Source: Paragyromitra xinjiangensis (taxonomy: Eukaryota > Ascomycota > Pezizomycetes > Pezizales > Discinaceae). Taken from it: a DNA stretch of 64,000 nucleotides. Numbering within the stretch: position 1 is the stretch's first letter; each line of letters starts with the position of its first letter. The stretch covers positions 1,625,001 through 1,689,000 of the forward strand of contig JBCAMK010000004.1 in assembly GCA_038503065.1 (NCBI GenBank). Reading direction: 5' to 3'. Below are positions 3,282-58,074 of this stretch, piece by piece. The position numbers were made by a program, and so were the translations under genes. The notes beneath the pieces were generated by a model. The model was not told the origin of the DNA, ran no database searches, and worked only from the letters and a program-made list of their open reading frames with translations.

Positions 3282-4290
3282 TTATGCTCTCTGTCCTTCC
3301 TGCATCTTCCTCACCAAATCTTCCCTTTGCTTCAAGTCCTTCAACACCTCTCCCAACCACCATCTATGCATTCTTGGATCACTTGTCAGTTCTGGATGAA
3401 AGCTTGTCCCAACCACGTTCCCTTGCCTTACAGCCACAATATTGCTTGTATCACTGCTATTCTCCCTCTCCCTACACTCATCCACCTGCATAGGCTCCGC
3501 GACCTCCCCTTTTGAGTTTGTATCATGTAGCGGTCTATCCGCCGTACTCAACCCCTCATGCGGCAGCAACTGCCTTCTTAGCTCCGCAATCACCTCCACG
3601 TGTTCATCATCAGTAAACACCCTTTCAACCTCCCCCTTCGGTGCTTTCCTCGGCGCCCTGACTTCGACTTCATCACTTCTCTCTTCACGGGGTAGAATAC
3701 ACTCGACTATCGGTGCTCGTATGAAAACACCATTGAAAGGTCTCTCTCCCTCACCAAGGAACGAGAGCTGCAGCGGTGTTTCAAACGACTCCGTTTGGCG
3801 TCCGAAATGATTGCGGTTAACACGAACGGAAAGACCCCCGATAAGGGATTGTCCGCCCTTCTTGGTACGATTTGCTGCTTCAGAGAGTAAGATCATTCCT
3901 GCGCAGGTACCCCAGGTTGGACGCCGATCCGCCTTGACAAAGTCACGGAGGGGTTCGAGGAGGTTAGAGCGCTCAGCGATGAGAGCCATAGTTGTGGACT
4001 CGCCGCCTGAGGTGGGTTAGTTGGGTTTGGTATGTATTTAGGGGGGAGAAGTACCTGGAATCACTAGAGCAGAGCATTGGGTGAGTTCTTCAGGAGTTTT
4101 GACAAGAATAAAGTTGAGTGGTTGTGAAGACTCGAGACCCATGGCAGCCTTCTTCAAGAGCTGTATGTGCTCACTGAAGGCACCCTGGAGAGCTATTTCT
4201 CATCCGATCAGTCTACATTACTTGAAGTTGGAAGTGAAAGTACTTACCGAGGACCCCAATAGTGATACTGGTACTTTCTACCATTTTCAT
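3282..4290 (-). CDS. PDX2: Pyridoxal 5'-phosphate synthase glutaminase subunit (PdxT/Sno family)
   Basis: This enzyme hydrolyses glutamine and channels ammonia to the Pdx1/Snz synthase for vitamin B6 synthesis. Exons are 4248-4290, 4055-4192 and 3282-4006; introns 4193-4247 (55 bp) and 4007-4054 (48 bp). The joined CDS gives 301 aa. Class-I glutaminase features are present: ITIGVLALQGAFSEH near the N-terminus, IPGGEST split by intron 2, the nucleophile Cys95 in GTCAGM, and the His264-Glu266 pair in SFHPELTSD. The family usually has about 190-230 aa. The extra length is a charged, low-complexity stretch between about residues 140 and 250, which looks disordered. Two in-frame Met codons (4290 and 4284) could serve as start; I chose the first. 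It is divergent from the COQ11-like gene across 574 bp. Confidence 0.93.
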
Positions 4291-6849: not shown

Positions 6850-8724
6850 ATGGCCGACGTCGCATCTACCTACGCTGAAGGCGGGAAGAAGAACTATGTC
6901 CAGAAACCAGAGAAGCCGGATCAGGAACTGTTCGACAAGAACCTCAAGATCGCACAGGACGAGCATAATGCCGCTCGGGAGGAACTGGTAGGTTCACAAT
7001 TCACTTTCCCTTCTTCTCACTTATTTCCTTTCCCTATGTCTTAATTCGACTACGGCGATCTGTCATGATCGAGCTGTTATTGGTTTTATGACATTGAATA
7101 TTAGGCTAACCACCCCACTCTAGAACGCCGTAAAATCCCGTCTCGAATTAATCAAAACCCCCGGCAGGTCCCCACGTGAGCAAGATCTCCGCAGTCAACT
7201 CAACGCCCTTAGCGCCACGCAGCAAGACAAGAAAGCCAACCGCGCTAAAATCGAAGAGGAGATCAAAGCACTCGATACATCGATTAGGGCCAAGAGAAAG
7301 GAACAGGATGCTGCGCAAACGAAACTTAAGTATAAGACGCTTGAGGATCTCGATGCCGCTGTTAAAAATATGGAGAAGGAGATGGAGAGTGGGAAGCTGA
7401 AGTTGGTGGAGGAGAGAAAAACACTAGCGGAAATTTGTAGGTTCTTTCTTCTCAATTGGATTGATTGAGTGGAACATGTGCTGATTTTCGTGGGGGGATT
7501 CTTTTAGCGAGCTTGAATAAAGTCCGGAAGAACTATGCAGCTTTGAGCGAGAGCCAGAAGGCCATTGACAACGAAAGAGCTAAGCTCGACGAACTCAAGC
7601 AGCTGAAGAAGGACCCTGAGGTCCAGGAACTAAGCGACAAGTACGAAGCTGTCAAGAAGGAACTTGATGGTATCAAAGCTGAGCAAGATGCTGCGTTAGT
7701 TGATGACAACCGGTTTGGCACCTCGATGGACCATTGCTGACGGAACATAGTTTCCAGAACCGTAGCAGTCTCCTTGACGAGCGCACAAAGCTTCAAGAAG
7801 AGCAGCAAGCCAAATGGCAAGCGATCCAGACGCTGAAGGATGAGTACTTCTCCGCTAAGAACGCCTATCGCTCCTATGAACAGGAGGCACGAAGGATCAA
7901 ACAGGAGAAGTGGGCCAGAGAACAAAAGGAGCAAAAGCAAGCCTATAGGCTCGAAATCGCTAGGAGGAAGATGGGTACGTTCCTCTATAAGAGGAAATAT
8001 TTAATTCCATGTGAATCGGAATAACCGCTAATAGTCTGCAGAGGAGGCTTCCGAAAAAGCATACGCCTCCGAGATTATCACCTGCGAGGGCCTCATCGGT
8101 TTCTTCGACCCCTCCTCTACCGAAGCCGCGCGCAAAGCAAAGCTTTCAGCAGAGCCCCGCGCCCTCGCTGCGCAGCCTACCCGCTCGGTCGACACCAAGC
8201 TCGTCGGTACCAAGATACTTAGCAAGGATGACCGCGAGGAAGATTACTTTGTTGGTAATGTTGGTAAGAAGAAGGGTAGGAGGGGCCGGAAGGAGGCAAC
8301 TTCGCCTGCTGGTTCTGGCACATCGACTCCGGCGGAGTCTGCTGGTGGGAAGTTCAATCTGAGTTTTGGTGTTCTGGAGGAACTGGCGAAGATTGATGTG
8401 GAGACGCCTATGAGTAAGGATGATGTGCCAAAGACCCTGGAGAAGCTAAGGGAGAAGTTGGCATGGTATAAAGAGAATCAGGAGATTAAGACCCAAGAGG
8501 TAGAAATATTGACTCTTAGGTATGCGAGATGTGATGCTAATATTGTCTCGTAGAACATCGCCAAGGTTCAAAAAGAAATCGATCGTCTTGCAGCCGAAGC
8601 TGCCAGGGAAGATGGCGAGCTACCTAGCGGTAGTCGCACCCCTACGAAGGAAACTGAACCTGAGACTGAGGCTAAGGAGGAGGAGCCCACTCAGGAGGAT
8701 GGTGCTGCAGAGAAGACCGAGTAA
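6850..8724 (+). CDS. BFR1: Bfr1-like nuclear segregation / polysome-associated coiled-coil protein
   Basis: Bfr1 binds mRNP and polysomes at the ER and affects nuclear segregation and secretion. Exons are 6850-6987, 7124-7436, 7508-7698, 7758-7974, 8042-8499 and 8554-8724; the CDS is 1,488 nt (495 aa). The protein is almost wholly coiled coil and rich in Lys, Glu and Gln. It begins with a short leader and KPEKPDQELF, continues with family-like DERTKLQEEQ and CEGLIGFF segments, then a basic patch KKKGRRGRK, and ends in an acidic tail. Intron 3 (7699-7757) needs the weak donor GTTGAT; a branch-like CTGAC lies 18-22 bases before its acceptor. That intron is the least certain part of the model. 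Start at MADVAS follows the family pattern. Confidence 0.87.
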
Positions 8725-17405: not shown

Positions 17406-18725
17406 CTAACTGGAGCTAGGGTTTCCCATTGAATGGGAAGGTTTTTGGTCCGAATCTACTCGACCAGTATTTGTGATGCTTGGTAGTCTTCGTCGACGAG
17501 CATTGATGAACCAGTTGCTTACCTATACTCTAAGTTAGATAGGTGATTCGCGGAAAAGAAGTCGTTGCTACCTACTTGGTTGATATTAAGGCCTGTTTGC
17601 GCCATCAACATCTGCTTCTCGTCTTCTGTTGGATAGGGATGGTGCAAATGATCATTTAGCCAACCTCGAAGGAGATCGGTGACATGTTTGGGTAAATTTC
17701 CTCTTCGTCGCTTTCCTGGGCGGCCATGATCGAAATGGTCCATAGTCATATCCACAGGGTGGCCACCAGCAGAAAATGGTGATCTATTGTCCATCATCAT
17801 CGGCTGCGCAGATGCATAACTGGAATTTCTTTGTGGCTGAGAGTAAGAAGAATGAGAATAATATTGATTAGACAACTGGGGTACTGGAGAGGAACTTCGG
17901 TACGAAGGACCATTAGGCATCCCAGAACCTCCAGAATATCTATGATACTCTTGAGAGGACTGTTGGTACCGTATATCATTGTCGATAGGGGATGTGTAAG
18001 AAGACTGTTGAGTAGCTTGTGGGAGCGACTGGGTATGGGCAAATAATGATGGGAGTGTGACGGGTTGTTGCGGCCTGTCTGAAGGATCCATATCGAAAGA
18101 TGACCCGCGTGATGATGTCAATGAGGCTACAGGTGGCAGGTACGGACTGGGCCTATTATCGTTCACATATGAAGATGAAGTAGATGAGATAATGCTTATT
18201 CGCCTTTGATCCACCGATGAGGCGGGCGACGCATAATTCTGTCCGTCATAGCGAGCATCGGCAGGATCACTCGATACTATCCGCCCGCCTGTCAGAGGTA
18301 TATTGGGAATTGAACAAGCAGTTGCCGTCGCCCCGCGCTGGCTAGGTGACGATGATAGAACGGGCATACTTGAGGAGGAATCGGATACAGCGCTTGAAGG
18401 GCTTTGAGAAACCCTTCCATGTACTTGGAAAGTGGGCGAACCACGATCCGCTATCCTTCGTGGCATAGAGCTTGACGAAGCGTGCATTTCTCGAGAGTTT
18501 TGTGAGGGGGTATGTGAGTAAAATTCTGGAAGCGCCTTTTTCCTCCCTAATTGTCAGTCCACCCTAGAAACGAAGAGCGAGCCAGATCATCCCAGAGGCT
18601 TTTACCTGATGCAAAGGAGGAAGGGATTGTTCAACCCCAGGAAAAGTGGACGATGAAGTAGGTCCCATTGTCATAGTGCTTGCCATTGCTCTTTTGCGAC
18701 TACGATCGAGTGGGGACGTGTCCAT
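17406..18725 (-). CDS. TALE/KN-type homeodomain transcription factor
   Basis: Predicted nuclear DNA-binding regulator; relatives in Pezizomycotina act in development. Exons are 18606-18725, 17576-18535 and 17406-17522 (398 aa). The body is Ser/Pro/Gln-rich and likely disordered. A basic GKRRRGNLPK starts a homeodomain at about residues 315-375. It carries the TALE hallmarks HHPYPTEDEK after helix 1 and, across intron 2 (17523-17575), the recognition helix NQ/VSNWFINARRRR. The C-terminal tail is about 25 residues. Intron 2 is secure. Intron 1 has a clear donor (CAG/GTAAAA at 18605), but the acceptors nearest a branch-like CTGAC are in the wrong phase; I use AAAAAG at 18536, which keeps the frame, and regard that junction as uncertain. 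The gene stands alone in gene-free DNA. Confidence 0.87.
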
Positions 18726-35734: not shown

Positions 35735-38104
35735 CAGTTCAATCGCCCTATAAGGGTTCACTCTGGACCAAGTCTCATACCCTTATAAAGCAGATACCCT
35801 TATAAAGCCGCCGAGTGATATTTCATGATGCCGAGTTCACGGTAGGATTAAGCATCTTAGGAGGTTTCCCGGTGCTAGATCGAGGTTTGGTATACAGTGT
35901 GTTTTAGTTTATGAGTGTTTTCACGCACTTGTGTTTTATTAATTACAGTAATTTTTATCCCGAATACCCATCATTACATGAGAAGAAAGTGTCGATTTTT
36001 TGCTGAACCTGGCGCCCTAACCTACTTACTCTTTCAGTTTCCATCTCTCGCATCATTCTAGCTAAATCATCTTGATTCCGCCGACTTGGGCTGTCTTTTT
36101 GAAGCTCAAACAAACTAATTATTTCTAAACTATCCATGACATCCCCCAACTTTATTTCTTCATGCTCTACCTCATCTTTTTCCTCCTCTATTTGTTCGGT
36201 AGCATTAACAGGCCGGAAAGTGTCAAGGATTTGCGCCTAATAAAGTAATTTAGTGATGATAAAATTAAAGTCTGAGGACCAAAGTGCTTACATCAAGAGT
36301 CGCTAGATCATCATCAATTCTCTCTTCCACCGGATCCAAAAAGCCATCCAGGTCTGTTACCTCATCGATAAATTTTCCCGCTAATAGAATTTCCAAATCT
36401 GCAAGCACTGATCTCCTAATATCGGCTAATTCTTCATCATCTTTTAAGAGTAGGGTTTGATCATCGTCATGGTTCTGCCAGTGGTTGTCATCCTGGCTAC
36501 TTCTCGGGATAAATGTCATACCATGTGGTAACTGGTATGGCCCTGGCTCGAATAATTTGACGGTACTCTTTGTAAAGCAGTTGAATATAGTTGAAGGCTT
36601 AACATCATAGTTCCAAGCAGTTACAGCCCATCGAATTGCCTGTAAAAGACTAATTTTGGGTAAAGACTGACTAGGAGAAAGCTTGTCAACAGCATTGACT
36701 AGGTACCGAACATAGTGACGACGAGTATGAGCTTTCCAAGCAGATATGATCCCTTGATCTAAAGGTTGCCACTTGCTGGTAGTATTGGCTGGAAGAAAAA
36801 TAACACGAGTATTTCGGAGACCTAACTCTCCTCCAATGTCTCTAACACCACACTCGTGGGCTGAAAAATTGTCCATCAGTAAAACCACTTTACGTCCACG
36901 CATGCGTTGATCAAACCAAGTTAAAAACTCTATCATTATCTTGGTTTGCATCCAGGATGTTTTGTTGTTTCGATAAACTATTCCTAAAGCATTTTTGTTG
37001 ATTCTTTTAAAACAACGAGGTTTTTTGGATTTTCCGATTATCCAAAGAGGTAGTTTGTCCGTCCCAGTACCGTTACAAGTTAAAGCCACTGTAATTCTAG
37101 CCTTTTCTTTCTTGACTCCCTCTATTTGCTCGGTGCAAAGTCGTCGGTCAGGTTGCATTCGGTACCAGTAGCCAGTTTCATCTACATTGTAGGTGTCATT
37201 CAGATCGTATTTTGATAGAATTTTTCGTATGGCTTCCATTTCGGCTTCCGCTTCTGCACTACAGTCAGAGCTTCCCGATTCTCCATGTTGTTTGTATTCC
37301 CGGATCCCGTGACCTCTCTTCCAGGTATCAAGCCATCCATCAGAAAACTTAGGGGTATCGCAATCTATCTCACAACCACATCAAAAATTAGCATTTATTC
37401 TATCATTTTTTAAAACTAAATAATAGCTTACCAGGATATATCTCAACGAAAAAGCTCCTAGCTTTCTCTTTAAGGATTTCTCCTGTAAGTGGGACTCGCT
37501 TCTCCACTTTCTTGTGCCACATGAAAAGTGCTTCGTCTAACTCAGGCCATTCAACTTGACGTCTTTTCTTCACAGGACCTTGTCGGGAGGATAAAGTTTG
37601 TCCTACTAGATCTGCGGATCGCTCAAGTAATGTTCTACTAATCACTGATTGCGAGATAATTTTCCCGTTGTGGGTATCTGAAAACCATTTTTGAATTTCT
37701 TTCCAGTGCGGGTGCTGGTTTTTAGGGCTGCATTGTACCTGATCAGCAAACCACTCACACATATCTTTTCGCTCCTGGTCGGAAAATGCTTGTCTTTTTT
37801 TTACCGGTGGCTTTGTTGTAGATGTCATAGTGATCTGAGATGCCTGTGTTGTAAACTTGAATAATGAAGTCGGGGGAACATAACCAACCGATGAAATACC
37901 CCTATTGAAAAATACCCCTATCGAAAATACCCCTAACCCTACACTGGCTATAAGGGTATACCACCAAAAAAATCTGAAATACCTAAGGGTATTCTTATAG
38001 GGAGATACCCTTATTTTACCATACAAAAAAAGTCGGGACCACCAAGTATACCCTTATAGAGCAGATACCCTTACAGGGCGAACCCTTATAGGGCGATTGA
38101 ACTG
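35735..38104 (-). mobile_element. Apparently intact pogo-type DNA transposon with TIRs and TA target duplication
   Basis: The 2,370-bp element begins cagttcaatcgccctataag and ends with its reverse complement, each end flanked by TA (35733-35734 and 38105-38106). Behind both TIRs lie subterminal repeats of ataagggtat type: two inside the left end (35780-35812) and several inside the right end (37900-38090), probable transposase-binding sites. The interior is filled by one spliced transposase gene on the minus strand with no broken frame. The TA target site, TIR style and DDD transposase place it in the Tc1/mariner superfamily, pogo/Tigger branch. A related terminus is found at 52995-53039 and a related small element at 60282-60448. 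Confidence 0.92.
35955..37828 (-). CDS. Pogo/Tigger-type transposase, DDD catalytic core, CENP-B-like N-terminus
   Basis: Cut-and-paste transposase of the surrounding element. Exons are 37432-37828, 36292-37364 and 35955-36236; introns of 67 bp (37365-37431) and 55 bp (36237-36291). The CDS is 1,752 nt (583 aa) and intact. The N-terminus holds a helix-turn-helix region and a CENP-B-type domain (FSDGWLDTWKRGHGI then YKQHGESGS formed across the first splice). The catalytic triad is visible as NVDETGYWY, LLMDNFSAHE and QPLDQGIISAWK, the DDD arrangement of pogo. The C-terminal part is acidic. The start at 37828 (MTSTTKPPVKKRQ) was chosen because the longer open frame upstream runs into the terminal repeats. 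No frameshift or stop is seen, so the copy could be active or recent. Confidence 0.92.
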
Positions 38105-38940: not shown

Positions 38941-41786
38941 TCAGTGATCAAGGAACCTATTAACCTCCGGATCCTCAGTGGAATACTCGTCGTCATCATC
39001 GTCAAGGTTCTCGATTGCCTCTTTAATCAGATGTCCAGCCTATCACGCACATCTGTTAGCCTAGTACTTCCTGTAAAAAAATAACAAATAAGTCCAGGTC
39101 TCATACCTTCGGATCCAGATTCAACGCATCGGTAAAGTGCTTAATCGCATTCTTTTTATCCTTAAGCAATTTATACAGCTTCCCAAGCAAGAAATGCACA
39201 TTCGCTTCATCCGGAGCAATATCTTTCAGTATCCGTAGTTCCTTTAAAGCCGCCGGATACATCCTCAAACTCATCAAAGTTCGCGCCTTCTTGAACCTAC
39301 TTAGCGCACTCCCGGGAGCCATTTCGCAAGCAATGTTATATTGCCCCAGAGCACCTTTATAGTCTTTCGTCTTCTCGAGCACCATGCCGACACAACATAC
39401 TAATACAGCGTTCGTAGGATTGATCTTTGTTGCAGTACGGAAATGTTTCTCGGCAACATCATATTTGCCCATTTTCTCATACACTTTTCCAAGACCGTAC
39501 CATGCATTGTAGTGTCTCGAATCCGCAGCAATTGCGCAGCGGTAGGAGGAGAGGGCTTTCTCATACTCCTCGTTTGATACGTGTTCGTGGCCTTGTAGCG
39601 TGAATGCATATGCGAGTTTGGGGTTTAGTTGAGTGGCACGTTTGAAACATTTGAGAGCCTGGTCGTGGTCGCGCTGGAGGGAGAAGCAGTTCCCGAGGGC
39701 GCACCATGATTCGGGGGAGGAACGATCGAGTTCGACCAATTCGTGCGCGAGGTACGAAAGATCAACATCTTTGCGCTGATGCCAGAGGATTGTGGAGAAA
39801 ACCTCCATGTCTTGTGTCCGAACAGGGTCTAATTGTCGGACTTTTAGGAAACTTTTCTCGGCCTATCGTTAAACCGTTATTTATGAGTTGCGTTGCTTAT
39901 CACTCGGCGCAACGGTACCACAAAGGATGGGGGAGCACAAACATCAACATAATTTGCCATCTCATAGTGAGCCCTCCCAATCTTACTTTGTACCCACGGC
40001 GTCTCTCTTTGACTTGCTGGCAACGAATTGAACGCCTGAAGAGCCTCTTTGCAATGAAACCTGCTCAGGCTAAAATAACCGCTACCTAATTTCCGGAATA
40101 ATTCAAGCACGAAGTACATGGCCTCCTCTTTCTTCGAGTCCACCAGCGGCTTTAAAGGAGCTACCTGTGCGACCGGCTTGGAGGCGGCGGCGGCGGCGGC
40201 ATCGGTCATCTGTTTTTTTCGCATTCTTGTTAGTGACGGATCCGCAGATGATGCCATTTGCTTCCTCTTGGCTATTGTTGCAGTTGTAGCCCTTGTAGCA
40301 CGTTGGGGCTGGGGCTCTGTGATTTCAAACGATACAGTGATAGTGGTGGAGGAACCGTTACGAACATTAACATCCTCGCTGTTCCCTTTGTCTCTCTCCC
40401 TTTCCTTCGCGGTAGCGGTAGTTCCGTTGGTGAGATGTAGACCACTTCTACTTCGGCTGCCGGCAGTCTTCATCTTTTTCGCGTCCCTTTCCCTTTCCCT
40501 TGCTGCTACCCGTGCTTCCCGCTCTGATCCAACTCCGAGTTTGCTTGTGAACTTGCTCGTCAGTCTTGTACTTCTTCGGGCTGGCGCGGCAGTGGCGTTG
40601 ACATCCTGAGAAGACGCTGTTGCTGGCCGTTTAGCGTCGTTACTGATTTCGCGAGTACTTCTGCTTGAGAGCTTTCTCGTTGTGATTTCTGTAGTAGTAG
40701 CACGAGTCTTTCTGACTGGTGGTGGCTTCTCGGGAATGGTATTCAAATTACCCCCACCAAGCATATCGTGACCCGCTGGATTCGAAGACTGCGCTGTGGG
40801 TGTCTCTAGTTCACTAATACCATTCCCGAGACCTTCATTTAACCGATTGAAGAATGACGGGTGGTTATTGAAAGCAAGATCTGAGCGGTCTCTAGAGCTG
40901 CCATTTGTAGTCGCGAACGGATCGTTAGGAAAGTTCTCGGACGCATTGCGTAACCCATTTGTGGCTGCAAACTCTTCAGGTATTGTAGCTGGGATGTTTG
41001 ACGGGTTTGAAGAAGGTAGTTTGAGCGATTCTAGCATCTCTGCTGTCGGCTTGAAGATGTTGTTTACCCGAAGGTTCACGCCTGGAAAACTCGGTTAGCA
41101 TTCACACCGGCGAACCGCCATAGGAGCTTAAAATACCGGTATCACACAGCCCTAGAAATGCCTCCCATAAGTATGGATTAAGCTTAACAGCTGCCACATA
41201 GCAATCCACCGCCTTCTTCATATCGCCAATGGCATGCCATAACCGCCCAACCAGAGAATATATAGTCGCAGCGTCAGGCATTGCTCTCCTTTCGGTATCC
41301 GAATGTTGACCTATCACTAAAATTAGCTATAAGCTCTGAAATCAAAGGGCGCCGCCTCGCCCCCCCCCAATTCAACCAGTCGCCCAAAGGAAATAACTGA
41401 ATTCGTGGGAGACGAAAAGAGAGAGTGTGTGAGGGGAATCACTCACTCCACGCGCTGCTTCCGCCCCAATACCGTTTACACCCCTCCAACGCATTGACCC
41501 CATGGTTTTCCCTCCCACCTCCAAGCTTCAGACAGCATTGCGCGTATATATAAGCACATCCCACATGCCGGAACCAACTCTTTGTCAGGTTCTCCGCGGC
41601 CTGATACTGGCCATCGCGATACAAGCATAGGGCAAGCAAGTGAACCGAGTCGGCGCCCTTCGGGTCATAAGCGTAGAGTCGTTCGGCAACAAACAGAGCG
41701 GTGGTCAAAGTGTCGGTATCCAAAGACTGCCATATTAGCGACCGAAACTGCGCGACGACGTTCGGTTGTGGCACTGCTGGTGACAT
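38941..41786 (-). CDS. CDC27: Cdc27/Apc3, TPR subunit of the anaphase-promoting complex
   Basis: Cdc27 is the APC/C subunit that docks Cdc20/Cdh1 coactivators and Doc1 through their IR tails. Exons are 41447-41786, 41137-41310, 39943-41081, 39107-39862 and 38941-39039; the CDS is 2,508 nt (835 aa). The N-terminal half-superhelix shows ALFVAERLYAYDP and CLYRDGQYQAAENL, then AVDCYVAAVKLNPYLWEAF. A Ser/Thr/Ala-rich disordered middle includes a short poly-Ala. The C-terminal TPR array contains SWCALGNCFSLQRDHDQAL, YNAWYGLGKVYEKMGKY and FLLGKLYKLLKDKKNAI. The tail is acidic (NLDDDDDEYSTEDPE). The start MSPAVPQP matches the family; the frame is open for 134 codons further upstream. It lies head-to-head with SMC3. 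Confidence 0.95.
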
Positions 41787-47329
<5,543 letters not shown>

Positions 47330-53521: not shown

Positions 53522-56500
53522 TTAGTTATATCCTTTTCCCCTCTTATTATCCCACCACCTCTCCTCGGCAGTCCTTGTCTCGACCACACTCACACCACCA
53601 GAAACCTCCTTAGTCTCCTCATCTAAGAAGTTATAAACAGAACTCCTCGCATCCTCATCTACAGGCCAGAACTCCTCGGTTCTTGTAACTGTGGTAACGC
53701 CGTTGGTCCCGGCAGTCGCGGCAGCCGTGTTGATTGAAGTTGCATTGATAGAAGCAGCATTATTAACCAAAGCCTTCTTTCCAAGCCACTCCGTCTCTCT
53801 CATGGTCGTACGGGTGACGGCGTTATCATGTCCAATCTTACCAACAATGGCGCTATTGTTATTACCGTGGCTGTGGGAGCTGTGACTACGATGGTGCTGG
53901 TGGTGGCCAGCGTCGTGATGGGCCTCACCAAATTGAGTGACCTGGGTCTTCTCGATCGCCTTGTTGATCGCAGCATCTTCGAATCGGCCGAGGGGACTAC
54001 GGGTAGGAATGGCGCTATGGGAGTGGCCGTTGTGTGAGGTTTCGCCAATGCGGGTAACTTGAGTCTTCTCGATAATGGTTCGGCCATCAGCATGAAGTGC
54101 AGAATCGTTGTGCCTATGGTTATGCCTATGGCTGTGGTGACCATGCTTATGGTGGCCGCTGTCGTGGATGTTCTCGTCGATACGGGTGATCTCAGTTTTC
54201 TCGACAATTTTGCGGCCGTCAGTGTGGAGGGTTGCATCCCCAAAATTGCTGCGGGAATCATTATGCCTGTGGCTATGTGAGTGATTGTGATGACCGCCGT
54301 CGTGAAGGGTCTCGCCAATACGGGTAATTTGAGTCTTCTCAACTACGGTGTGGCCATGGCCATGCATACCATGAGATACCGCGTCATCACCGAAGCGGTT
54401 GGTGTGGCCATGACCAACTATAGAGTGACCCTTGTGCAGGGTCTCGCCGAAATCACTTCGGGAATCCTCATGCACGGTACTAGCAACACCGAATTGACGG
54501 AGATCCTCAACTGCGTTCGCCTCGTCTCTCCATTCTTTAACGGTTTCAGTGTGAATGATGACTTGACCGTCTCTTCCGTGAGTGCTGTGGTCGTGGCCGT
54601 GACTTTGAGTGCCAGTTACCTTACGAACGAGATCGCCGGCGGATAAACCCTGACGGCTGCCAGAGTGTGAGCGACCATGGCTGTGGCCAGTAACCCTCTC
54701 GGCGGCACCAACGATAGCACCGGCAACGCCTCCGTGTTCGCGGCCCCGGGATTCATGGGCAGCGGTATGTTCACGGTAAGAATTCTCGTCGAATCGGGCT
54801 CTAGAATCTGTGACAGTTTGATGACCCTCGTGGTGGTTCCTGATGAGCGGAGTATGCGAACCCTCGGCAATATCGAACTCCTCGACAACCTTGGTGGTAG
54901 TCTGGGTGATCACATCTCCACCGTGGTGATTGTGAGTATGGCCGTCATGGCTATGTTGATTATGATCATGGCTCAAGAGTTTGTGGCCAAGAGCAGCCCC
55001 AGTAATAGCACTGGCAACACCGGTGGTGTGGCCGCCGTGGCTATGTTCGCTATGACTGTGTTTCGAGAGCTTATGACCAAGGGTAGCGCCAGCAACAGCA
55101 CCAGTAACGCCAGCGACATGGCCACCATGGCCACTGTGACTATGTTCGTTATGATTGTGGCTCGAAAGTTTGTGGCTCGAAAGCTTGTGGCTAAGTGCAG
55201 CACCGGTAACAGCACCGGTAACGCCAGCGGCATGGCCACTGTGACTATGTTCGTTATGATTGTGGCTCGAAAGTTTGTGGCTCGAAAGCTTGTGGCCAAG
55301 CGCAGCACCGGTAACAGCACTGGTAACGCCAGCGGCATGACCACTGTGACTATGTTCGTTACGATTGTGGCTCGAAAGTTTGTGGCTCGAAAGCTTATGG
55401 CCAAGGGTGGCGCCAGTAACAGCACCAACGACACCAGCGGCATGGCTACTATGACTGTTGTGACTATGGCCCGAAAGCTTGTGGCCGAGGGCAGCTCCAG
55501 TAACAGCACCAACAACACCAGCAGCATGGCCACCATGACTGTTGTGACTATGACCCGAAAGCTTGTGGCCAAGGGCAGCTCCAGTAACAGCACCAACAAC
55601 ACCAGCAACAGCAGATCCGCGTCGACTGCGAGAACCAGTTCCGGAATGACCATGCTCTACACGCTCCTCGATACGAGTGTGTTCAGTCATTCCATTGTGG
55701 TTCCTTCCAATCCGGGAGCCAACGTGACCACCCCCACTATGCGTACGAGTCTCATGGACATCCTGACGCATCTCACCAGTGTGTATACGATCATCAGCGA
55801 TATGACCAGAGTGCGCAACCTTTCCGGTATGATGGTGAGAGTCTTCGCCAACACCTTCCCTCCATTCTTCGACCCTCTCGCGAGCTGTGTGGACGATGAC
55901 ATTTCCGTGCTCATCGTATCTCTCGTTTCTGTTGTGAGCGTGAGCTGCCCCAGCCGCAAGACCTGCTGCGGCGGCGGCGGCGGCGGCGGCGACCTTCATG
56001 CCACCGTGGCGGCTATCTTGCCTATGCTTCCCAATGCTAGTGTGCTCAGTGATTTTCTCACGAACCTCGGAGAGCTTTCCGGCCGCATGACCTCCCCCGA
56101 CCAGGCCGACGACTTTGGACTTTCCATGGCTTGCCATTGACTCAACTTTCTCGACACCCTCCATCGCTTTGTCTATGAGCTTTTTCTGTCGAGGGCCCGC
56201 CTTGTCGTAAGCGTCCTTTGCCATGAGTTTGGTTGTCGAGTGGAAGGTGTGGTCTTCTGTCCTGTTATATGCCCTCATGACAAAGTAGTAGAGTGAGAGA
56301 ATAGTTCGGTGGACGGATTCCTTTATGACCATAGTAATTCCTATTTCGGCATATTAGGCCTCGTATTAAGAACTTGAAGAGGGTGGGAACCTACCACTCG
56401 AAACAAACCCCCTAAGAAGTTCTCCAAGAACGCCCTCATAAAGTCCCGCAATACCCTCTCTTTTAAAAATATCTGCTAATACCTCGATCACATTCCCACT

Positions 56501-58074
56501 TCTTCTCACCTTTTTTGAGATAATATTTTTGATTTCTTTCCCTGCTTTGCCAATATTGGCCATATCCCGGAGGGTAAAATCATCATCCTCGTTTGCAATC
56601 TGCGTCCTCGACTTCGCAACTGCCAGTGGGTAAGTCAACCCCGTTGCAATTGCCTTGGCAACAGCTGCAATGAGGAACGTTTCTGCGCCTTTCAGTCTCC
56701 TCTGTTTACCACCAGCAAAGTTTTTAAGTGATTCATAAAGCAGGAAGGTAATGCTTGGGTTAAGCGATAGGAAGGCGCTCGCCGAATATCCAGACCAGAA
56801 CCCAGTGATACCCTTTTCTCGCATGATATCTTCGTAGATGTCGACAATACCAGGAGCCCTTGCATTCGGGTATAACATTGCATGTGTTTGTTTGCGCGTT
56901 GCGATAGTATTAAATGGAGTGAGGAAGAACTTAGATACAGACCCGGCGGCGAGACCAATCAAGAGTTCTTCTAGAACAGGAAGTTTGTTCGAATGCCGCT
57001 TGTGTAAACGCTTGTTTCGAAGGTAACTGTCTATTACCAAACCACTTTGTTACTAACCCACAGTTATAAGCTGGGAATGCCGCAGATACTTACAAACAGC
57101 AAAATACCAAAAAGCACTCCCTAATGTGCCCACAGTTTCTTCCACAACACCTGTATAGAATCCTGACAAACCCTCTTGTGCATAGATCTTCTGCGCGGCA
57201 TCAACCACACCCGAGTATCGAGCTTCCATCTCAAATTCGCTAGACGTCTCTCTCCACTCCGCCCGTGCTTGATCGTCCCCTCCCACGATAGTATTACTAT
57301 ACCTATACGAGTACGAGTACTCTCCGTCATCGGTTTTCCTCAAACGCTCCTCATTTCGCCCTCTCTCACCGAGCCCCAAAACCGGATGCTCCGGCGATTC
57401 ACCTCTTGGCCTTGGCGCTCTCCCACCAGTCTGCTTATATGAGCCAGGGCGTTCCCCTGATGACGAAGAACGACGTATCGGACTATCAGGCTTTAAACCA
57501 CCTCGCGGCCGCCCCCGAGCGCGAATCTGGTTCTGGATTTGTCGTTGGACTTGAAGGCGCTTAATGATCAAGTCAAGAGGATGAACGGCAAGGTTTGCGA
57601 TCGAGGAACCAACTGCGCCAGAGAATGCTTGGACAAGAGCTGGTACAGCATTCTCTCCAAATCGATGGTTTTGTTGAAAACCTTGTTTATGCCCATGTAT
57701 ACTGTGGCCATGTCTATGTCCTTCGTGGCTGTTTATGAGGTGCCCATCGTGCCCATGGGAGGTGCTACCGTTGTGCTTGGTAATCTCTGTCCGTCTAGAA
57801 ACTCATTAGGGTTTTATACTTTTTTACGTTATATCTATATTCCTAATGTATTTATTAAACGGAAAGGGTCAATTTACTCGACTCGATAAGTCTCGGCACC
57901 ACCCTGAAAAACCAATCAGCTTTCATTTTTTTATTTTTTTTATTTTACTTCATTTTGCTTCATTTCGAATCAATTGATGTTGTTGAGTGATAGCATGTGA
58001 AGTGGAGTAGGTAAACTCACGTGGCCATTATCCACGAGCTCACTGTCGTAAGGTGAACGAACTGAGTGAACCAT
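53522..58074 (-). CDS. Mitochondrial-carrier-family protein (PMP47/ANT1-like) fused to a long His-rich repeat region
   Basis: Exons are 58021-58074, 57094-57784, 56395-57030 and 53522-56340; the CDS is 4,200 nt (1,399 aa). Residues 60-480 are a solute carrier. Motif 1 is HPLDLIIKRLQVQ; motif 2 is the degenerate TPFNTIATRKQT and motif 3 YPLAVAKSRTQ, a pattern typical of peroxisomal adenine nucleotide carriers. The last helix (ITMVIKESVHRT then ILSLYYFVMRAY) begins at the intron 3 joint, and its exon continues without a stop for about 900 residues: an Ala run, seven glycine-zipper units (about 704-933), four units beginning xEKTxxTxxxE (about 1124-1288), and a TEEFWPVDED-type tail. A His-rich patch (residues 27-50) and an Arg-rich loop of about 90 residues lie around helix 1. 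The exon 1 to 2 joint (acceptor CAGAG at 57785) is the weakest. Confidence 0.88.
53858..54352 (-). repeat. Four EKT-type units inside the carrier fusion
   Basis: Units begin VVEKTQITRIGE, IVEKTEITRIDE, IIEKTQVTRIGE and AIEKTQVTQFGE, each followed by a His/Asp/Ser-rich linker. The EKTxxTRIGE core looks like a short strand motif. Related single copies occur elsewhere in the same protein (VHTARERVEEW, IIHTETVKEW, TVTRTEEFW), so the whole C-terminal region may be built from one ancestral module. Confidence 0.8.
54923..55612 (-). repeat. Seven tandem glycine-zipper/histidine units inside the carrier fusion
   Basis: Each unit starts with a 17-residue glycine-zipper helix of type AAGVVGAVTGAALGHKL, followed by a hydrophilic spacer such as SGHSHNSHGG or SSHKLSSHNHNEHSHSG. 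Units 3, 4 and 5 share the doubled HKLSSHKLSS spacer and are nearly identical at DNA level, which points to recent local duplication. Small-residue spacing (G/A every four residues) would favour helix packing or membrane insertion; the spacers carry His at almost every second or third position. Confidence 0.9.

Follow-up and report, generated by a model that had tools for sequence, protein, structure and literature searches.

An SLC25-type carrier with a lineage-specific disordered tail in Paragyromitra xinjiangensis and other Pezizales

The window analyzed here is a stretch of 64,000 nucleotides from Paragyromitra xinjiangensis (contig JBCAMK010000004.1, positions 1,625,001 to 1,689,000 of the forward strand), and it contains a gene that joins a solute carrier of the SLC25 family to a C-terminal tail of 912 residues, counted after helix 6. 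The gene runs from an ATG at 58074 to a stop codon at 53522 on the minus strand, the strand of all its features given below in window coordinates. It is predicted to encode 1,411 residues in five exons separated by four introns, with a coding sequence of 4,236 nucleotides (nt) and a single stop. SLC25 carriers usually have about 300 residues.

Exon 1 (58021..58074, residues 1-18) ends at a predicted GTGAGT donor, and intron 1 (58020-57904, 117 nt, GTGAGT...TTTTCAG) leads to exon 2, a predicted micro-exon of 26 nt (57878..57903), which is followed by intron 2 (57877-57795, 83 nt, GTAAAT...TTTCTAG). Alternative in-frame splices are also possible at the 5' end of the gene, and we favored the micro-exon because its canonical splice sites restore the frame and its encoded residues resemble the N-terminus of Morchella (junction residues GHGGAETYRVERTEITKH, similar to GHDDYDTYHVKTTEIIQH of Morchella sextelata). 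Exon 3 (57094..57794) encodes the His-rich N-terminus and the first two carrier helices with their long connecting loop, and exon 4 (56395..57030) encodes helices 3 to 5 and the start of helix 6, the two being separated by intron 3 (57093-57031, 63 nt, GT...AG). Since intron 4 (56394-56341, 54 nt, GT...AG) lies inside helix 6, exon 5 (53522..56340, a 943-residue open frame) carries the end of that helix together with the entire tail and the stop codon.

An earlier, sequence-only reading of this DNA had proposed a gene with exactly these outer limits, and both ends match the start and stop codons on the minus strand. The introns that we number 3 and 4 had also been placed correctly, with GT...AG borders and a single frame preserved from the carrier to the end of the tail. 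That reading had counted three introns in one frame of 4,200 nt, of which the single frame holds and the intron count does not, our best model having four. It had likewise put helix 6 and the first repeats into one exon, which is right for the end of helix 6 only. We conclude that carrier and tail are one gene and that the fusion is real.

The carrier core, supported by Pfam Mito_carr matches and family-invariant positions, spans residues 73-499 (56261..57658, introns included). Mito_carr (PF00153) matched the window protein in four stretches (E 2e-44), a phmmer search of the PDB with the window carrier returned ten distinct sequences, including ADP/ATP carriers and UCP1, and the structure model of a Geopyxis relative (P0009) gave 14 PDB matches at E <= 0.001, every one a carrier (ADP/ATP carriers and UCP1 included). 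The three-repeat, six-helix SLC25 architecture is supported by Pfam in the window protein and by matches to solved carriers in the model of P0009. At 34 columns that are invariant when 47 chosen relatives are aligned, the window carrier keeps 34/34 residues, and there is therefore no sign of decay in the transport core; the tail-less carrier of the same genome described below keeps 27/34. The canonical SLC25 signature, PX[DE]XX[KR]X[KR], is only partially present (PLDLIIKR in repeat 1, PFNTIATR in repeat 2 and PLAVAKSR in repeat 3), its acidic residue being absent from repeats 2 and 3. Given that all invariant family positions are kept, this partial signature looks like a trait of the subfamily and not like decay.

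A search with the carrier half returned 296 proteins at E <= 1e-30, and we took names, tail lengths and loops from the 120 matches listed. At least 10 of these 120 are named peroxisomal adenine nucleotide transporter or peroxisomal ATP carrier, with mitochondrial carrier and hypothetical among the remaining names; by these automatic names, the assignment to a peroxisomal-type carrier made from sequence holds among the matches listed. The family is present across Pezizomycotina. The nearest other carrier in the P. xinjiangensis genome (locus L013, G000 C1:2304020-2304571) has 327 residues when spliced by hand and no long tail, is about 35% identical to the window carrier across the matched stretch, and has a very long branch in the carrier tree. 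L013 appears to resemble yeast Ant1, and it, not the window carrier, is the putative Ant1 counterpart in this genome. From these sequences, the genome seems to hold two peroxisomal-type carriers.

Two further features lie in the carrier half. The loop from helix 1 to helix 2 (107 residues, 57218..57538) is enlarged in Pezizales: nine of ten rows from this order have 64-195 residues here, a partial Sphaerosporella protein has 10, and 117 listed others have 9-29; in the Geopyxis model, predicted strands (118-146) lie within it. The N-terminal patch, residues 33-72 (57659..57778), had been called His-rich, and indeed 13 His occur among the 72 residues that precede the carrier. Comparable counts are seen in Morchella (16/74) and Tuber (14/61 and 16/73), and the patch is limited to the Morchella-Tuber group, with 1-2 His each in Rhizina, Geopyxis, Kalaharituber and Pyronema.

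A full-length protein search returned 18 proteins, and both carrier and tail were present in 10 named Pezizales: Morchella sextelata, Tuber magnatum, T. aestivum, T. indicum, T. brumale, Choiromyces venosus, Rhizina undulata, Geopyxis carbonaria, Kalaharituber pfeilii and Pyronema domesticum (the order was looked up for 4 of the 10, and we presume it for the remainder). The gene models of T. indicum and T. brumale begin within the carrier, and P0001, P0017 and P0018 are exon-5-type frames among the same matches; in all, the tail follows the carrier, or the last stretch of helix 6, in 13 proteins from other sources. Full-length relatives have about 820 to 1,490 residues. Because the same layout occurs in Morchella, Tuber, Choiromyces, Rhizina, Geopyxis, Kalaharituber and Pyronema, an artifact of a single assembly is excluded, and the contrary case raised at the outset, relatives that always keep the two parts as separate genes, was not seen. 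A tail-only search, capped at 7,995 scored candidates, gave only P0001 and P0002 (E <= 1e-5) and hence no free-standing tail gene, since neither reads as one; this search missed the known Tuber and Rhizina tails, so distant tail-only proteins could escape it too. The genome (48.2 Mb, 22 contigs) yielded no further copy of either the tail or its C-terminus. These proteins are already in databases as uncharacterized or carrier-named entries, and searches of open-licence papers brought up no account of the layout itself, in agreement with the sequence-only reading, which had known of no such carrier.

In a carrier tree of 30 rows, with partial own-genome carrier rows left out, the window protein adjoins Morchella (100/99), to which it is 75% identical over 360 columns, and both group with Tuber and Choiromyces (100/97). 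These sequences point to vertical descent, at least within the Morchella-Tuber group.

The tail has 795-1059 residues in 11 of 14 Pezizales rows (the window, Morchella, Tuber, Choiromyces, Rhizina, P0001, P0017 and P0018), a set that omits the full-length matches P0012 and P0016, and it is shorter in Geopyxis (376), Pyronema (396) and Kalaharituber (311). The window tail is rich in His (13.8%), Gly (12.7%) and Ser (9.6%), contains no Cys and 6 Trp in its 912 residues, and is hydrophilic, with a grand average of hydropathy (GRAVY) of -0.86. The His content is about 10-14% in the Morchella-Tuber group, 4.6% in Rhizina and 2.9% in Kalaharituber. AlphaFold2, run on the window exon-5 frame with a 14-row alignment, gave a mean predicted local distance difference test (pLDDT) score of 36.2, with 860 of 943 residues below 50 and order confined to about the first 85 residues. 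For Geopyxis (47-row alignment) the mean was 60.6; the carrier and helices 447-491 were ordered, and most remaining residues were not.

The Pezizomycotina proteins named 'peroxisomal adenine nucleotide transporter 1' (P0019 from Lachnellula, P0021 from Hyaloscypha) belong to the same carrier family, sharing its invariant positions with the window protein. Compared with the window's, however, the tails of such relatives are short (median 121 and maximum 371 residues in 118 other listed relatives) and mostly amphipathic helix (z relative to shuffles has a median of 5.2 and exceeds 2 in 95% of 109 non-Pezizales tails of at least 60 residues), and these relatives have few His, no RVxxW motif and only the short helix 1-2 loop. 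We are nearly certain that the gene encodes a carrier with a lineage-specific disordered tail.

By eye, the amphipathic repeats of P0044, P0057, P0072, P0090 and other non-Pezizales tails resemble LEA- or apolipoprotein-like helices; an apolipoprotein Pfam match in P0044 is sub-threshold, and the database lists PF01442 for P0114. Antisense to the window tail, at 54671-56140 on the plus strand, lies an open frame of 489 residues, most likely a by-product of repeat composition.

To find conserved parts of the tail, we compared 12-residue windows with shuffled tails and counted those that scored above the shuffles in at least 5 of 8 relatives. The conserved 12-mers cluster in the proximal region, an Ala-rich stretch, the RVxxW motif, parts of the His-rich repeats and a C-terminal block, and they include a second, xVKEWRD copy of an RVxxW-type motif. 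The membrane-proximal part, residues 503-553 (56099..56251), combines such 12-mers with two AlphaFold2 helices (35-51 and 54-85 of the exon-5 frame). RVxxW itself (RVEEWREGV, residues 628-636, 55850..55876), a pattern defined after inspecting the tails, is shared by all 14 Pezizales tails and by none of the 109 non-Pezizales tails, and in the Geopyxis model it falls in a predicted helix (646-673, pLDDT about 50-71). The C-terminal block, VDEDARSSVYNF...GKGYN (residues 1366-1411, 53525..53662), is present in a single copy in the genome, and [VI]YNF occurs near the C-terminus in 11 of the 14 Pezizales tails, namely the long ones.

Seven glycine-zipper-like units form an array at residues ~717-930 (54968..55609), recognized by PF05433 and by comparison of the repeats. 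The tail had been described as about 900 residues of His-rich glycine-zipper repeats; its length and His content bear this out, and the zipper repeats are confined to about 215 of the 912 residues. The window protein passes the cut-off for the glycine zipper 2TM domain (Rick_17kDa_Anti, PF05433) with 27.8 bits against 24.2, and the only matches found in its own genome fall within this array. Its segments, hydrophobic for about 15 residues at a time and separated by His/Ser stretches, are predicted by AlphaFold2 to be unstructured. Among five relatives scanned, the Pfam zipper was missing from the Morchella, Tuber magnatum, Rhizina and Geopyxis proteins and sub-threshold in P0001. On these grounds, the suggestion in the sequence-only reading that glycine-zipper contacts could provide the mechanism is not supported, and we rejected the zippers as a conserved core because they are local to this lineage. 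The DNA shows tandem repetition, in units of 84 and 105 nt that match to about 91%. Between units, the pooled proportions of silent (pS) and amino acid-changing (pN) differences are 0.39 and 0.13, with 72/34/144 differences at codon positions 1/2/3, in 21 pairs that are not independent since units are shared. This silent excess supports coding with some constraint. We interpret the zipper repeats as one type of filler that expanded locally, not as a conserved part.

What might such a tail do? Most of it varies fast yet keeps its anchors, these being the proximal helices, RVxxW and, in long-tailed species, the YNF block. A fast-evolving spacer with fixed anchors is expected of a flexible tether, and for this reason we chose, tentatively, to read the protein as a working organelle carrier whose tail is such a tether, with two other readings, a surface brush and near-neutral growth, ranking close behind as rivals. 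The carrier would reside in the peroxisomal membrane, as database names suggest, and perhaps in the membrane of Woronin bodies too, where it would transport adenine-nucleotide-like cofactors in parallel to the tail-less, Ant1-like L013. The tail would extend into the cytosol, its disordered stretch serving as a spacer whose length would count more than its sequence, and the conserved motifs would attach to a partner structure, for instance the septum, the cell cortex or a different organelle. The His-rich filler may let pH or metal ions modulate this attachment. The fuller proposal, that Pezizales turned a peroxisomal-type cofactor carrier into an organelle tether with pH- or metal-responsive His filler and with motifs that dock on septum, cortex or organelle, is decidedly unlikely to hold in all its parts.

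Several observations weigh against the tether. The counts of long tails are not independent, because several of the 11 rows are close Tuber kin, and the low pLDDT of the window tail may partly stem from its thin alignment. Amphipathy in Pezizales is limited to the first hundred residues of the tail (z > 2 in 6 of 14 rows), and in the proximal tail neither the window (z 1.2) nor Morchella (0.45) exceeds the shuffles. P0013-P0015 are without RVxxW, the motif is non-helical in the window model, and the C-terminal block is absent from Kalaharituber, Pyronema and Geopyxis, the last having only a W..K.YK-like end. The partial Sphaerosporella protein (P0075) has neither a tail nor the loop insertion, and Pezizales do not form one clade in the carrier tree, in which Kalaharituber joins non-Pezizales rows (95/89). 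Finally, an Ala-rich segment of the tail could form a seventh membrane span.

The long, disordered Pezizomycotina proteins SPA, SPP and the Woronin-body tether Leashin, to which we liken the tail by description, differ from the window protein in not being carriers. In addition, passages of PMC10023807 describe the disordered regions of the septal-pore proteins SPP and SPA as Arg/His-biased and poor in Gly and Lys, whereas Gly is abundant in the window tail.

Alternatively, the tail may be a membrane-anchored hydrophilin that forms a surface brush and acts like the peroxisome-associated dehydrin-like proteins, protecting the organelle or binding metals and quenching oxidants; such a Gly/His/Ser-rich, Cys-free polymer would need no specific partner. 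We regard this as rather unlikely. The composition and hydropathy of the tail fit it. In the parts of PMC3788798 that bear on fungal dehydrin-like proteins, these are described as disordered, hydrophilic, Gly-rich and peroxisome-associated (DprA/B, AbDhn1/2 and a Tuber borchii dehydrin), with AbDhn1 and AbDhn2 of Alternaria and DprA and DprB of A. fumigatus supporting tolerance of oxidative stress. The window tail is likewise hydrophilic, predicted to be disordered and low in Cys and Trp, but it is also His-rich and covalently part of a carrier, and it has no DPR motif. That motif occurs once in the Morchella tail and in none of the 12 other Pezizales tails, so that 13 of 14 tails lack it, and we rejected membership in the dehydrin-like proteins on account of its absence from the window tail. 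Moreover, His richness is not general, as Rhizina and Kalaharituber demonstrate, and a brush alone leaves the conserved Trp motif and the C-terminal block unexplained.

It is also possible, if unlikely, that the tail grew nearly neutrally: in the ancestor, a short amphipathic tail could absorb insertions, and simple-repeat slippage then enlarged the Pezizales tails with no new function. The well-matched tandem repeats, a zipper array local to this lineage, and a tail length and composition that vary widely are all consistent with such growth. Set against it are the excess of pS over pN between repeat units, which gene conversion or the common descent of the repeats could account for only partly, and the persistence of the anchors across families.

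That the protein has a different place or sidedness is quite unlikely in our judgment. Both ends of a six-helix carrier are likely to lie on the same side of the membrane; however, the Ala/Gly-rich hydrophobic segment at residues 585-607 (55937..56005) is a candidate seventh span, and the tail might cross there and end inside the organelle. Residues 589-607 have a Kyte-Doolittle mean of 1.54, as hydrophobic as the carrier helices (1.25-1.63), a simple sum of their insertion values reaches 4.2 compared with 4.6-7.0 in carrier segments, and some relatives have hydrophobic segments further along the tail, up to 1.64. Yet the segment is weaker in most relatives (0.75-1.22) and absent from Geopyxis and Pyronema, Ala-rich runs are frequently soluble helices, and the AlphaFold2 helix at this site has a pLDDT below 50. 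Because its hydrophobicity matches that of carrier helices, the segment may still act as a seventh span, which would shift most of the tail to the opposite side. Alternatively the protein may be mitochondrial and not peroxisomal, as many listed relatives are named only 'mitochondrial carrier'. An artifact of annotation or assembly that joined two genes is extremely unlikely and was rejected: the 5' splice sites are indeed predictions, but the last part of helix 6 shares a single exon with the tail, and the 10 named proteins with carrier and tail come from other assemblies.

If the fuller tether proposal is true, one membrane protein would link cofactor import to organelle position, and it might assume part of the Woronin-body or peroxisome tethering done by separate proteins in other Pezizomycotina. 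Should the tail either tether or protect peroxisomes, nucleotide supply would be tied to the behavior of the organelle. This oversized carrier, with conserved motifs in a disordered tail, has persisted in a clade of fungi that includes edible and symbiotic species. The carrier half has a wider bearing. Yeast Ant1, C. boidinii PMP47, human PMP34 (SLC25A17) and A. nidulans AntA, peroxisomal carriers of ATP or cofactors according to passages of PMC7463629, PMC7829553, PMC7106852 and PMC3709128, have the SLC25 fold in common with the window carrier. According to a portion of PMC3709128, peroxisomal function is partly retained in an A. nidulans antA mutant, and the authors suggested that ATP is also delivered by a system independent of AntA. 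An obvious candidate for that system is another conserved carrier of the peroxisomal type, which has an amphipathic tail in many Pezizomycotina.

In the window as a whole, no Rfam families were found at gathering scores. Outside the gene, a DNA transposon on the minus strand (36268-38053) encodes a DDE_1 transposase with a Tc5-type DNA-binding domain, and an SMC protein with N-terminal, hinge and C-terminal parts extends across three frames on the plus strand (43266-47120). The minus strand also encodes an SNO glutamine amidotransferase (3285-4016), a homeobox KN protein (17522-18553) and a TPR protein (39104-39862).

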